Below, one piece after another: positions 15,501 through 20,424 of a DNA stretch of 64,000 nt. A program made the translations under genes and the position numbers. The stretch spans positions 186,001 to 250,000 of the forward strand of contig NZ_CP095046.1 in the NCBI RefSeq assembly GCF_022919215.1. Reading direction: 5' to 3'. Below the pieces are notes generated by a model. The model was not told the DNA's origin. It saw only the letters and a list, made by a program, of their open reading frames with translations, and did no database searches. Each line of letters begins with the position of its first letter. Positions within the stretch are counted from its first letter, which is position 1. The DNA comes from Hymenobacter cellulosilyticus. Lineage in GTDB: Bacteria; Bacteroidota; Bacteroidia; Cytophagales; Hymenobacteraceae.

Positions 15501-15809
15501 ATGGGACTGTTCGATTTCCTCAGCAATAAAGGCGAAGAAAAACCGGTTCAGCCAGCGGCCAAGCCCGCCGCCGGAGCCACCGATTTTTTCGGAAATAATA
15601 ACGCCGCTGCGGCCCCCGCAGCGCAACCTACCGCCGCAAAAGGCGACTCTTATACTGTGGTAAGCGGCGATTCGCTCTCGAAGATTGCCAAGCACCACTA
15701 CGGTGACGCCTCCAAGTGGCACCAGATTTACGAAGCAAATAAAGCCATTATTGGCGCTAACCCCGACCATATCGAAGTGGGTCAGCAGCTAACGTTACCT
15801 ACCCTTTAG
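15501..15809 (+). CDS. LysM-domain protein
   Basis: 102 residues with no signal peptide. The N-terminal half is a low-complexity alanine/proline-rich linker after MGLFDFLSNKG. The C-terminal half is one LysM domain running from YTVVSGDSLSKIAKHHYG to VGQQLTLPTL, the whole of the fold. This architecture matches small YgaU/LysM proteins whose tail binds peptidoglycan or another glycan. Without an export signal its location is uncertain. It is followed by a terminator and then by the promoter of the methionine operon, so it is probably monocistronic. Confidence 0.85.
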   Translation: MGLFDFLSNKGEEKPVQPAAKPAAGATDFFGNNNAAAAPAAQPTAAKGDSYTVVSGDSLSKIAKHHYGDASKWHQIYEANKAIIGANPDHIEVGQQLTLPTL

Positions 15810-15834: not shown

Positions 15835-15867
15835 AAACGCCGTCCGAGCTTCGGGCGGCGTTTTTTT
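15835..15867 (+). terminator. Intrinsic terminator after the LysM gene
   Basis: A stem of about 12 pairs (AACGCCG with CGGCGTT, then a T-G pair and CCGA/TCGG) is capped by a three-base loop and followed by seven T. Confidence 0.85.
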
Positions 15868-15907
15868 CGTCCATTTTCTGGAAAAAATAAAAAACTTTCC
15901 CCGGAAT

Positions 15908-15937
15908 TTGGTCTTTTCAATTCCAGGTGTACATTTG
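15908..15937 (+). promoter_or_regulatory. Promoter of the metY-metX-hom leader transcript
   Basis: TTG at 15908-15910, exactly 19 bases, then TACATTTG (15930-15937), the full Bacteroidota housekeeping promoter pattern. The expected start of transcription is about 15943, some 45 bases before the riboswitch. Confidence 0.8.
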
Positions 15938-15986
15938 CAGTCACCAACCCGGTACTCTCCCAGAACGATGGGACAGTTTGAAAGAA

Positions 15987-16095
15987 TTTATACAGAAGCG
16001 GCGAGAGAACAGGCTCCCTGACCCGCTGGCAACCTTCATCTGATGAAAGGTGCCAATTCCTGCCCGCATGGCGTAAGGCCTGCGGGAGCTATAAG
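15987..16095 (+). promoter_or_regulatory. SAM-I (S-box) riboswitch aptamer
   Basis: The arrangement of the S-box class is visible. P1 pairs TTTATA (15987-15992) with TATAAG (16090-16095). P2 pairs AGCGG (15997-16001) with CCGCT (16023-16027) and carries the kink-turn-type bases GAGAGAA and TGA. The conserved GGCAACC is followed by the P3 hairpin (ACCTTCATC/GATGAAAGGT) and GGTGCCAATTCC. P4 pairs CCCGCA with TGCGGG. SAM binding normally shuts down methionine-synthesis genes, matching the metY-metX-hom genes downstream. I see no terminator directly after the aptamer; the start codon of the leader ORF is only nine bases from P1. Confidence 0.92.
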
Positions 16096-16104
16096 TCGAG
16101 TACC

Positions 16105-16269
16105 ATGGAAAACAACCCTGCTTCCGCTTTCTTTACCCCGTCCGCGTCAGCCGCCTCCGTGCCGGCTGCTTCGCCGATGGGTTTGCGCATTTCTGCCCCT
16201 GGGTTTTCGGCCCGGCTGGCCGAACGAATGCGAATGTGCTGTTGGACCACGTGTTGTTGCTGTTGCTAG
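16105..16269 (+). CDS. Leader peptide with a C-terminal cluster of cysteine codons
   Basis: A 54-codon ORF starts nine bases after the SAM aptamer and ends 210 bases before metY. The body is plain (MENNPASAFF..., rich in A, S and P), but the last 13 codons read MRMCCWTTCCCCC followed by TAG, giving seven cysteine codons among the last nine. Such a run at the end of a short ORF in a biosynthetic leader is the hallmark of translation-coupled attenuation that senses charged tRNA-Cys. Comparable cysteine-rich leader ORFs are described in actinobacteria. A shorter start at 16225 (ATG CGA ATG) would keep the cysteine cluster. The peptide itself is unlikely to have a function. This ORF was recognised by reading the leader directly. 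Confidence 0.75.
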   Translation: MENNPASAFFTPSASAASVPAASPMGLRISAPGFSARLAERMRMCCWTTCCCCC

Positions 16270-16320
16270 CCCCTGAGCGCCTAGCTTCTCCCCTCCCCTC
16301 CTTTTTTAGGCTTCCCCACC
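16265..16320 (+). promoter_or_regulatory. Candidate Rho-dependent attenuator after the leader ORF
   Basis: A small hairpin (GCTAG 16265-16269 with CTAGC 16281-16285) covers the leader stop codon. The next 40 bases (16281-16320) contain 20 C and only 3 G, the composition of a Rho-loading (rut) site, with six T at 16302-16307. This tract would be exposed once ribosomes finish the leader. No strong intrinsic terminator is evident between here and metY, although 16325-16345 can form a G/C-rich hairpin without a T run. Confidence 0.5.
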
Positions 16321-16420
16321 GCTTGCGGCCCTTGCGGGCCCGCTTCGTCGCAGGGTTTGGCCTGGCTCCGTTGCAGCCTTTTGCGGGCTCCGGATGTATT
16401 CCTGGTTGCCGTCGCCATGA

Positions 16421-17862
<1,442 letters not shown>

Positions 17863-18125: not shown

Positions 18126-19157
18126 ATGAATCAGCCTCGGCTTTTGAACCTTCCGGCGGGACTCGTGCTCGAAAGTGGCGCGACGCTGGCTCCGGTGCAG
18201 ATAGCCTACCACACTTTCGGCACCCTGAATGAGGCCCGCGACAACGTAGTATGGGTGTGCCACGCCCTGACGGCCAACGCTGACGTGCTCAGCTGGTGGA
18301 ATGGCCTGTTTGGCCCAGGCTGCTACTTCGACCCAGCCGACTGGTTAATCGTGTGCGCCAACATCCTGGGCTCGTGCTACGGCAGTACCGGTCCGCTCAC
18401 GCCCGTAGGAGACGCTGCTGAGCCCTTGTACCAGCAGTTTCCGCTGATAACTATCCGGGACCTGGCGGCGGCGCACGAGGCGCTGCGGCTGGAGCTGGAC
18501 CTGACGAGAATCCACACCCTGATTGGGGGTTCTTTGGGTGGGCAGCAGGCCTTGGAATGGGCCATTCAGCAGCCCGAGGTATTTACCAATCTGGTCGTGC
18601 TGGCAACTAATGCCCAGCATTCTCCCTGGGGAATTGCTTTCAACGAAGCCCAGCGCCTGGCCATTTTTGCCGATGCTACTTACCACGTAGGCACCCCGAC
18701 CGGCGGGCAGCTCGGCCTGAAAGCGGCCCGGGCCACGGCTCTGCTCAGCTACCGCAGCTACGACGCCTACGGCCGCACTCAGGCTGAAACCGACCCCGAC
18801 CGTTTCGACGACTTCCGGGCCAGCTCCTACCAGCAGCACCAAGGGGATAAGCTCGTGGCCCGCTTCAACGCCTACAGCTACGTGGCCTTGTCGCGCACGA
18901 TGGATACCCACAATCTGGGCCGGGGCCGGGGCAGTATTGCCCATGCCCTCAGCCAGATTAAAGCCCGCACGCTGGTGCTCAGCATCAGTTCCGATGTGCT
19001 GTTTCCGCCTGCTGAGCAGCAGCTACTAGCTCGCCACATTCCGGGCGCGACGTATGCCGAAATGGACTCCCAGTTCGGCCACGATGGTTTCCTGATTGAA
19101 ACCGCTCAGATAACTCAGTTTTTAGAGCAATTCTATGTCCCCAGCCTTGTCCATTAA
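18126..19157 (+). CDS. metX: Homoserine O-acetyltransferase
   Basis: 343 residues from the ATG at 18126 (MNQPRLLNLPAG). It transfers acetyl from acetyl-CoA to homoserine, producing the substrate of MetY. This is an alpha/beta-hydrolase fold: the nucleophile serine is in IGGSLGGQQALEW, the conserved NILGSCYGSTGP loop is present, the catalytic aspartate is in SSDVLFPP, and the histidine is in FGHDGFL. The 3' end overlaps hom by 23 bases, so the two are translationally linked. Together with metY and hom it covers homoserine to homocysteine. An in-frame upstream start at 18069 is unlikely. Confidence 0.95.
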   Translation: MNQPRLLNLPAGLVLESGATLAPVQIAYHTFGTLNEARDNVVWVCHALTANADVLSWWNGLFGPGCYFDPADWLIVCANILGSCYGSTGPLTPVGDAAEPLYQQFPLITIRDLAAAHEALRLELDLTRIHTLIGGSLGGQQALEWAIQQPEVFTNLVVLATNAQHSPWGIAFNEAQRLAIFADATYHVGTPTGGQLGLKAARATALLSYRSYDAYGRTQAETDPDRFDDFRASSYQQHQGDKLVARFNAYSYVALSRTMDTHNLGRGRGSIAHALSQIKARTLVLSISSDVLFPPAEQQLLARHIPGATYAEMDSQFGHDGFLIETAQITQFLEQFYVPSLVH

Positions 19158-20424
19158 CCCAGCCGTATCGGCTATTGCCGCTTCCCTGGTAACGGCTAAC
19201 GCTCCGCTCCGCATCGGACTTATCGGCTTTGGCTGCGTGGGGCAGGGCCTCTATGATATTCTGCAGCGCCAGCCCGGCTTCGGTGCTGAGGTTCGACGCA
19301 TTGCCGTGAAGAACCCAACCAAGTCCCGCACGCTGCCCACCAACGCCTTCAGCTTCCAGGCCGAGGAGCTGCTACACGACCCCGAGCTGGATGTGCTGGT
19401 CGAAGTCATTGACGATGCGGCGGAAGCTTTCCGGCTGGTGAGCACCGCCCTGCGGCAGGGCCGGCAGGTAGTCACGGCCAATAAGGCTATGGTAGCGCAG
19501 CACTTGCCCGAGCTGGTGGCCTTGCAGCACGAGTTTGGCGGTACCCTGCTGTACGAAGCCGCCGTGTGCGGCAGCATCCCGGTTATCCGCACCCTCGATT
19601 CCTACTTTGGCCAAGAGCCCCTGCGCAGCGTGAGCGGTATTTTCAACGGCTCGTCGAACTACGTGCTGACGCGCATGGGCCAGGACGGCTCGGAATACGC
19701 CGTAGCGCTGGCCGAAGCTCAGGGCAAAGGCTTTGCTGAAACCGACCCCACACTGGACATGGCCGCCTTCGACCCTCGCTCGAAAGCCGTAATTCTGGCG
19801 GCGCATGCGTATGGCGTATTCCTGCAGCCCGAGCAGGTTCTGAATCTGGGCATCGAAAACGTCAGCGCCACCGATATTGCCTACGCCGCCGTGGCGGGAC
19901 AGAAGATCAAAGTAGTGGCCGGCCTGTACCTGCTGCCCGACAACCAACTCAGCGTGCTGGTTACCCCGCAGTTTGTGGACCGCACCTCCCCGCTATACAC
20001 TGTGGATGACGAGTTTAACGGCGTGGTTATCGAGGCCGAGTTTGCCGGTACGCAGTTTCTGCAGGGCCGGGGCGCGGGCGGCCATCCTACCGGCTCGGCC
20101 GTGCTGGCCGATATTGCGGCCCTGCGCCAGCAACAGCGTTACACCTACCCCAAGCTGACTGCCGCGCCACTGGCCTACACTACCGACCTGGAAATTGAAA
20201 TCTACCTGCGCACCGACGACGAACTGATTCTGGACCAACTCGGCTTTACCGACATCACCGAGGAAGCCGACGAGGACGGCTATATCGTGGGTTATGTCCC
20301 CTTCGATGCCCTGTTGCAGCACCGGGACCGGCTGCGCAAGGCCGGGGCCTTTGTAGCCCGTACCGGCAACGTGCGGCCCGCCACACACCCGGTCGAGGAC
20401 CTGGCATTGGCCGTCAGTGAGTAG
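19135..20424 (+). CDS. hom: Homoserine dehydrogenase
   Basis: 429 residues, the size of a monofunctional enzyme with a C-terminal regulatory-type domain. It reduces aspartate semialdehyde to homoserine. The NAD(P) motif is GLIGFGCVGQG near residue 30. The family signatures TANKAMVA, GIFNGSSNYVLTRM and FAETDPTLDM (with the substrate-binding glutamate and aspartates) are all present. The C-terminal 90 residues are only loosely ACT-like. No aspartokinase is fused to it. The start codon lies inside metX, so it belongs to the same operon, which closes with a terminator at 20444. Confidence 0.95.
   Translation: MSPALSINPAVSAIAASLVTANAPLRIGLIGFGCVGQGLYDILQRQPGFGAEVRRIAVKNPTKSRTLPTNAFSFQAEELLHDPELDVLVEVIDDAAEAFRLVSTALRQGRQVVTANKAMVAQHLPELVALQHEFGGTLLYEAAVCGSIPVIRTLDSYFGQEPLRSVSGIFNGSSNYVLTRMGQDGSEYAVALAEAQGKGFAETDPTLDMAAFDPRSKAVILAAHAYGVFLQPEQVLNLGIENVSATDIAYAAVAGQKIKVVAGLYLLPDNQLSVLVTPQFVDRTSPLYTVDDEFNGVVIEAEFAGTQFLQGRGAGGHPTGSAVLADIAALRQQQRYTYPKLTAAPLAYTTDLEIEIYLRTDDELILDQLGFTDITEEADEDGYIVGYVPFDALLQHRDRLRKAGAFVARTGNVRPATHPVEDLALAVSE

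Follow-up and report, generated by a model that had tools for sequence, protein, structure and literature searches.

A short open reading frame (ORF) ending in a run of cysteine codons starts directly behind a SAM-I riboswitch aptamer in the leader of metY-metX-hom in Hymenobacter cellulosilyticus, and the same arrangement recurs in relatives. The two parts fairly probably make up a composite cis-regulatory RNA with two inputs, SAM and cysteine, that would serve the entry of sulfur. In the fuller reading towards which we lean, with somewhat less assurance, they would act as a gate in series: the SAM-I aptamer would control initiation at the leader, and the cysteine and methionine codons would then control the downstream fate through tRNA charging. 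The result would be a NOR-type sensor that reads both sulfur end products and serves sulfur-entry genes across Bacteroidota lineages; the readout RNAs would differ from lineage to lineage and include a new covarying element. What was observed is a recurrent anatomy, its spacing, a bias in codons and residues, a partition among genes and an RNA structure in one clade.

The leader ORF of the metY operon

The features of the locus in the window (the whole stretch of 64,000 nucleotides that was analysed) are the following.

15907..15937, forward strand: candidate promoter of Bacteroidota type, TTTG (15907-15910), N19, TACATTTG (15930-15937); from the sequence
15985..16097, forward strand: SAM-I (S-box) aptamer; RF00162, 69.9 bits, model positions 1-108 of 108
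16105..16269, forward strand: leader ORF, 54 codons, ATG to TAG; from the ORF listing and its translation, with the same layout in relatives
16237..16266, forward strand: ten codons (45-54) with seven cysteines (CCWTTCCCCC), adjoined by the TAG at 16267-16269; from the sequence
16270..16478, forward strand: interval from the leader stop to the metY start, where the readout presumably takes place; from the sequence, no conserved structure found in Hymenobacter
16479..17694, forward strand: metY (O-acetylhomoserine sulfhydrylase), in three frames, the end being that of the tblastn match; tblastn and TIGR01326
18069..19157, forward strand: metX-like homoserine O-acetyltransferase; TIGR01392 and PRK00175, both below cut-off
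19135..20424, forward strand: hom, homoserine dehydrogenase; NF004976, 307.2 bits (cut-off 205)

The leader ORF translates into MENNPASAFFTPSASAASVPAASPMGLRISAPGFSARLAERMRMCCWTTCCCCC (54 residues), with the C-terminal end RMRMCCWTTCCCCC. A sequence-only reading of this DNA had described a 54-codon cysteine-rich ORF with seven cysteines among its last nine codons; the ORF is present, while the last nine codons hold six cysteines and the last ten hold seven, five of which form an unbroken final run of TGT or TGC. Cysteine accounts for 0.85% of the 15,573 codons of the 31 long ORFs of the window, and the binomial probability of at least seven cysteines in nine codons is approximately 1e-13, a few-fold larger for ten codons. 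The aptamer is a full-length member of its family and passes the RF00162 gathering score (69.9 vs. 44.4 bits); judged by sequence and structure score, it is a SAM-I aptamer. The leader ATG lies at +8 nt from the aptamer end.

The candidate promoter stands approximately 170 nt upstream of the leader ORF, and the pattern TTG-N18..22-TANNTTTG, which we take to be the Bacteroidota promoter consensus, was matched at 15908. Within 150 nt upstream, this pattern was present at 31 of 48 leader-bearing aptamers vs. 68 of 136 leaderless aptamers. Further upstream of the operon, a GC-rich inverted repeat with a T-run behind it (15837-15867), located after a LysM-domain ORF (15501-15809), resembles an ordinary intrinsic terminator.

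The placement of the leader before metY-metX-hom, as first read, is backed by NCBIfam matches to all three genes, those of metX being below the curated cut-offs. The three metY pieces found by tblastn (16497-16541, 16538-16741 and 16729-17694) are 97-100% identical to the Hymenobacter nitidus MetY (L288), and the largest scored 498.0 bits against TIGR01326 (cut-off 495.1). The best matches of the metX-like ORF were TIGR01392 (349.1 bits, cut-off 500) and PRK00175 (320.9 bits, cut-off 331). Relative to the H. nitidus MetY, the metY frame breaks near 16540 and 16735. The cysH gene of the same genome (G000:C1:2160359-2160999) was likewise matched as two separate pieces. Indels in the assembly are a likelier cause than two pseudogenes, and other frames of this genome should therefore be read with care. 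The leader frame is intact, and its H. nitidus counterpart ends in ERMRMCCWTPCCCCC, a near-identical C-terminus.

Relatives, codon use and downstream genes

SAM-I loci of relatives were scored with a leader rule that required a start codon (ATG or GTG) at +5 to +20 relative to the aptamer end, a length of 15-80 amino acids and at least three cysteines in the last 15 residues. The loci are the best-scoring matches, so the fractions given here are not population estimates. The rule selected a leader at 42 of 95 SAM-I loci drawn from the own genome, the genus and the order (L067, a duplicate of L020, was dropped) and at 6 of 89 class-level loci. As a control, it was applied to other positions of these loci, which overlap and are hence not independent, and selected 170 of 58,745 (0.29%). 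In a phylum-level draw, none of the 29 best-scoring loci carried a leader, at least one of these being from the same class.

A second set consisted of the best 80 named metY loci. SAM-I was detected upstream by nhmmer in 69 of them, and 49 of these 69 had a leader behind the aptamer when the start window was widened to +1 to +30; the other 11 of the 80, some with little upstream DNA, had no detected SAM-I and were excluded from this count. The named and the handle-only sets share some loci (L015 and L244 are the same locus, and L319 has the leader of L232) and were not summed. Four loci with cysteine-run ORFs (L236, L242, L284 and L286) failed the distance rule or had a truncated aptamer match and were scored as misses, and the cysteine-rich ORF of L126 also failed the rule. 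Carriers were found in Hymenobacter, Pontibacter, Rufibacter, Cesiribacter, Thermonema, Chryseolinea and Mucilaginibacter, and among metagenome-assembled genomes (MAGs) labelled Pedobacter and Flavobacteriales; a cysteine-run ORF is also present in a Saprospiraceae MAG (L281).

Conservation of the cysteine run in relatives, which the first reading had made a matter for alignment, is borne out by these two sets, and the expected poor conservation of the body was found as well, the alignments keeping the start and the cysteine end while the body drifts. On comparative grounds, the arrangement is real and far wider than the single locus first noted. The view of a single locus proved right for the metY operon and incomplete for the genome: six SAM-I aptamers were found by the genome search, and five of them are followed by a cysteine-rich ORF starting 8-11 nt past the aptamer. 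The five leaders lie before metY-metX-hom; a sulfate-assimilation region in which cysH (two pieces), cysD, a siroheme-type methyltransferase and cysJ were matched; an amino-acid permease (by a weak match and likeness to L311, PF13520); a RimK-type ATP-grasp gene (by likeness to L299); and a SusC/SusD pair (L314). The sixth aptamer, before metH, has no leader.

The leaders share a near-fixed geometry. Of 97 leaders, 87 start at +8 to +13 past the aptamer, with the mode at +10, and the stop codon adjoins the last cysteine in 74 of 97, some leaders running several residues beyond it. In the 97 leaders, cysteine makes up 44.8% of the last 12 residues vs. 3.2% of the body, and methionine 9.7% vs. 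1.4%; in 95 distinct sequences the methionine enrichment is 112/1140 vs. 36/2550 (p 3e-30, related sequences being treated as independent). Several class-level leaders mix both residues, as in DCMCMCCCCC and CCCMCMCMQVM. The runs differ in number of cysteines and are mixed with M, W, T, A and G, neither spacing nor partner residues being fixed. In ungapped within-group comparisons, 274 aligned Cys-Cys codons were identical and 89 differed in T or C (89/363), and cysteine faced another residue at 231 of 594 aligned positions; drift thus affects the run as well.

TGT is the rarer cysteine codon and yet the preferred one in Hymenobacter leaders. In 36 such leaders, cysteine was encoded by 146 TGT and 64 TGC (of 210), vs. 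21 TGT and 111 TGC (of 132) in the 31 long ORFs of the window (p 3e-23), and the other two-fold NNY codons of the same leaders ended in T in 63 of 184 cases (p 6e-12 vs. cysteine), both p values again treating related sequences as independent. The TGT bias is thus partly specific to cysteine. A sensor of tRNA charging might favour a slower codon that is read by wobble.

The presence of a leader varied with the downstream gene. Genes were assigned by tblastn likeness, and the two groups compared were named after the table had been seen; two loci of the order set, one with and one without a leader, had no assignment and stand outside the totals. In the order set, leaders preceded metY at 14 of 18 loci and cysH at 8 of 9 (the remaining four and one failing the leader rule), RimK-type genes at 9/9, permeases at 4/4 and SusC at 2/2. 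Leaders were also present at 2/2 loci of a group whose reference is an unassigned ORF, at the one locus of a CMD-domain gene and at the one locus of an NhaC-like gene, a label given without a family search. The presumed sulfur-entry group thus totals 41 of 46. By contrast, no leader was found before metH (0/15), cystathionine-lyase/synthase-type PLP genes (0/18), a CysK/CBS-like gene (0/8), hom (0/3) or metX (0/3), a total of 0/47 (0/44 without metX; Fisher p 3e-21 for 0/47 vs. 41/46). In the class set, leaders were found at 0/52 metH, 0/13 PLP-gene, 4/8 metY, 2/6 metX, 0/1 SusC, 0/1 hom and 0/8 unassigned loci. Read simply, both sensors would go with the genes by which sulfur enters, and SAM-I alone with those that redistribute it (metH, transsulfuration). 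The metX gene blurs this split. For the permease, RimK-type and SusC genes, a sulfur role is deduced from the presence of the leader, a partly circular argument.

Among 30 order-level cysH loci, SAM-I was found at three and a leader at two of these three. No cysteine leader was found at the 27 cysH loci without SAM-I, in up to approximately 1500 nt upstream of the match. Cysteine-rich short ORFs were also seen before metY without detectable SAM-I in two loci (L262:1829-1897 and L292:694-777), possibly leaders that have been without an aptamer from the outset or since its loss.

Aptamer types and the RNA behind the leader

The aptamers followed by a leader differ from the others. Leader-type aptamers end in TATAAA (each position in at least 44 of 48), while leaderless ones mostly end in GATAAG. 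A scan for a hairpin plus T-run within 160 nt found a terminator-like site at 3 of 48 leader loci vs. 77 of 136 leaderless loci, and in Hymenobacter only, at 3 of 30 vs. 27 of 32. None of the 18 metY and 8 cysH leader loci had one, the three belonging to two SusC-type genes and one permease. As terminator-like sites are so rare at leader loci, the usual terminator seems to be replaced by the leader start in Hymenobacter. A classical terminator/antiterminator pair behind the leader is not visible in the same scan.

In Hymenobacter, the RNA behind the leader gave little sign of a shared fold. RNAalifold covariation terms were near zero in the metY, cysH (two sets), RimK-type and permease groups. 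The signature of Rho was not decisive: the 80 nt after the leaders contain 33.8% C and 23.9% G, a modest difference from the coding sequence of the window (31.6% C and 29.4% G). In seven Mucilaginibacter metY leaders, an inverted repeat after the stop appeared conserved by eye and was rejected, since shuffles of the single sequences did not support it (11 to 117 of 200 shuffles reached the observed arm length). Across 95 leaders, pairing of the cysteine run with downstream RNA had a mean z of -0.50 (sem 0.14) vs. -0.29 (0.13) for a body segment. The excess of downstream pairing is slight and general, and not clearly specific to the cysteine run.

A candidate readout element was found in a Chryseolinea-like clade. 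In ten metY loci of this clade, GCAACA lies 19-34 nt past the leader stop and is followed, in most of the ten, by a hairpin with the loop NNGTGACR.

L227:1886-1943 and L259:1891-1948; also in L256, L257, L283, L230, L232 and L223, and in L317, L318 and L320: RNA element of the clade, GCAACA plus hairpin

On eight loci, the hairpin had 87.5% of its cells paired, seven pairs changed on both sides and a covariation score reached by 0 of 500 shuffles; the hairpin counted was drawn by hand from single-sequence folds of these eight, with L248 and L252 left out of the ten, a choice that favours the structure. RNAalifold on the unedited ten-sequence alignment of the clade gave three pairs only, none with both sides changed. 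A covariance model had one match each in 4 of 241 order-level genomes, which belong to a single genus. Among 77 sources it matched 9, of which eight are loci used to train it and one is a weak match. Upstream of each of the four genome loci is a cysteine-codon leader, in one case identical to that of L232. The 5' segment can pair with the cysteine codons in 13 of 13 loci, including L320, where the segment is AACAACA; such pairing is weak by itself because the cysteine run is repetitive and pairs easily. In combination, this pairing and the covarying hairpin suggest a switch that would be disturbed by a stalled ribosome. An Rfam search of three clade loci at E up to 2 returned SAM and two sub-threshold snoRNA matches only.

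Proposed mechanism, alternatives and known systems

The series gate would work as follows. The 3' strand of P1 in leader-type aptamers (TATAAA) ends approximately 10 nt before the leader start codon, and SAM binding would close P1, hinder the landing of the ribosome and leave the leader untranslated. In the absence of SAM, the leader would be translated, and its terminal cysteine codons, often together with methionine codons, would gauge charged tRNA-Cys. With ample cysteine the ribosome would reach the stop and leave, with scarce cysteine it would stall on the run, and its position would decide whether the following RNA permits expression. The readout might be Rho-dependent termination or a structure of unrecognised type in Hymenobacter, and the covarying hairpin, which begins with a segment complementary to the cysteine codons, in the Chryseolinea-like clade. 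Sulfate assimilation, metY and uptake genes would then be fully on only when SAM and cysteine were both short. Several results weigh against this model: the missing terminator, shared fold and decisive Rho signature in Hymenobacter, the lack of a pairing excess specific to the cysteine run, the drift within the run and the leaders that extend past it, the SAM-I metY loci with an ORF at +11 to +13 but no cysteine run, the four metY loci and one cysH locus of the order set that fail the rule, the cysteine-rich ORFs of L262 and L292 and the 0/29 of the phylum-level draw.

The sequence-only reading had proposed attenuation by charged tRNA-Cys and a response of the operon to both SAM and cysteine. 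Dual input has become more likely owing to the gene partition, the TGT bias and the near-fixed spacing; in other respects the reading is incomplete or wrong, since no terminator/antiterminator pair is visible and methionine codons are enriched too. The 10 of 20 leaderless SAM-I metY loci that keep an ORF at +11 to +13 without a cysteine run also speak against it. That proposal did not include gating of the leader's own start codon by SAM, which is probable here from the anatomy of the junction.

The strongest alternative is that the two are independent devices, the leader sensing tRNA-Cys charging while the aptamer acts elsewhere (on RNA stability, a weak terminator or Rho access) and leaves the start ungated. 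SAM control of the start is deduced from distance, no antisequestor having been identified, and three of 48 leader loci do have a terminator-like site, which favours independence. We nevertheless regard it as unlikely, because the spacing between aptamer and start is near-fixed (87/97 at +8 to +13), leader-type loci have a distinct P1 strand and have lost the terminator-like site, and cysH was not found with a leader where SAM-I is missing (0/27).

Alternatively, the nascent poly-Cys or Cys-Met chain might itself arrest the ribosome in response to a metal, redox, haem or thiol ligand, so that the codons matter via the peptide only. Poly-Cys could bind metal, and cysteine is placed at the very end, adjoining the stop, in 74 of 97 leaders, which recalls TnaC and other peptides that arrest at a stop codon. 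An arrest peptide would not explain the synonymous preference for TGT, runs that vary without fixed spacing or partner residues, or the restriction to sulfur-related genes downstream, and we give this explanation little credence.

Translation of the leader could also merely couple the aptamer to the gene, through reinitiation or Rho shielding, the cysteine content sensing nothing. A riboswitch-controlled upstream ORF is known from ppe2 of M. tuberculosis, where, according to the accessible text of PMC11260477, a B12 riboswitch controls translation of the leader uPPE2, which overlaps the gene start and hands translation on to that gene. Shared with the leaders studied here is a riboswitch with a short ORF starting directly behind it (+8 in the window). 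Simple coupling might also account for the 10 of 20 leaderless SAM-I metY loci (in Spirosoma, Algoriphagus, Belliella and others) that retain an ORF at +11 to +13 without a cysteine run. Unlike uPPE2, the leader of the window does not overlap the gene start, metY beginning approximately 209 nt past the leader stop, and it carries amino-acid-specific codons; with mere coupling, the cysteine enrichment and the TGT bias would have no reason, which makes this a very improbable account. The ORFs without a cysteine run (among them L220, L225 and L226 in Spirosoma and L250, L253, L254, L273 and L278 in Algoriphagus) would represent either a decay series or another use of the start.

A chance ORF or simple-repeat artefact, suggested by cysteine runs that are near-repeats of TGT/TGC and by the assembly indels in metY, has a negligible probability in view of the 42/95 loci against 0.29% of control positions, the T/C differences at 89 of 363 aligned cysteine codons, which exclude a fixed DNA repeat, and the near-identical C-terminus in the separate H. 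nitidus record.

The series gate would combine parts that are known. The S-box family (RF00162) is represented by its full-length aptamer, and differs here in the ORF start directly behind it and in the rarity of the terminator-like site. With ribosome-mediated attenuators, the leaders share a short ORF with a run of the relevant codons that recurs in relatives, but not a terminator/antiterminator pair (3/48 leader loci, 0/18 before metY). In Actinobacteria (Mycobacterium, P. acnes and B. longum), the accessible text of PMC1262725 describes cysteine-run leader ORFs before sulfur genes, with no obvious terminator and with Rho as one suggested possibility. Short ORF, cysteine codons near the stop, sulfur genes and the missing terminator are thus shared with what that text describes, whereas the leaders reported here stand behind a SAM-I aptamer, belong to another phylum and are enriched in methionine codons. 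Mycobacterial cysteine ORFs (Canestrari 2020) are titled leaderless, as cited in the available parts of PMC9094748 and PMC13236596; in the window, by contrast, the ORF lies behind an aptamer and a candidate promoter approximately 170 nt upstream. The Rhodobacterales uORFC-8-2 before cysS, with two tandem cysteine codons and an intrinsic terminator, is read as ribosome-mediated attenuation in the accessible text of PMC8632094; cysteine codons in an upstream ORF are common to both, while here the runs are longer, no terminator is seen, the genes are those of sulfur entry and an aptamer precedes. The SAM-II riboswitch of Sinorhizobium metA acts on translation initiation, at a distance (PMC9373788, as far as accessible), which is the step that SAM would control here; it has another class of aptamer, and the available text includes no sensing leader peptide. 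Accessible passages also mention leader-peptide attenuation for amino-acid operons of Flavobacterium psychrophilum (PMC9723704) and leader-like small ORFs in Bacteroides (PMC7366714).

The arrangement is absent from the accessible text of two riboswitch surveys (PMC3766115 and PMC2211319) and of a survey of contiguous riboswitches (PMC12452182). No description of a SAM-I aptamer joined to a cysteine leader was found in the accessible main texts of the open-licence literature, which does not prove priority. The S-box and the cysteine leader would therefore be known parts in an arrangement not found described there, and the comparative evidence for its function is strong, the mechanism being a proposal.

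If true, the proposed mechanism would provide a natural two-input RNA gate, with a metabolite aptamer and an amino-acid-charging sensor in series, and a hypothesis for the methionine/cysteine balance in Hymenobacter, Mucilaginibacter, Pontibacter and relatives. It suggests one possible way for a SAM-I aptamer to do without an intrinsic terminator, via control of a leader start. The transporters and the ATP-grasp/luciferase-like pair behind leaders would be candidate sulfur-supply genes.

RimK-type genes stand behind leader-type SAM-I aptamers in several loci (L315, L299, L300, L302, L306 and L310), with a luciferase-like oxygenase gene next in L299; the pair possibly belongs to an uncharacterised sulfur-supply or sulfur-compound pathway. 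SusC-type TonB receptor genes were found behind leader-type SAM-I in the own genome (L314, with SusD) and in another genome (L297, G010). They are candidate importers of a sulfur compound, and both leader loci have a terminator-like site.
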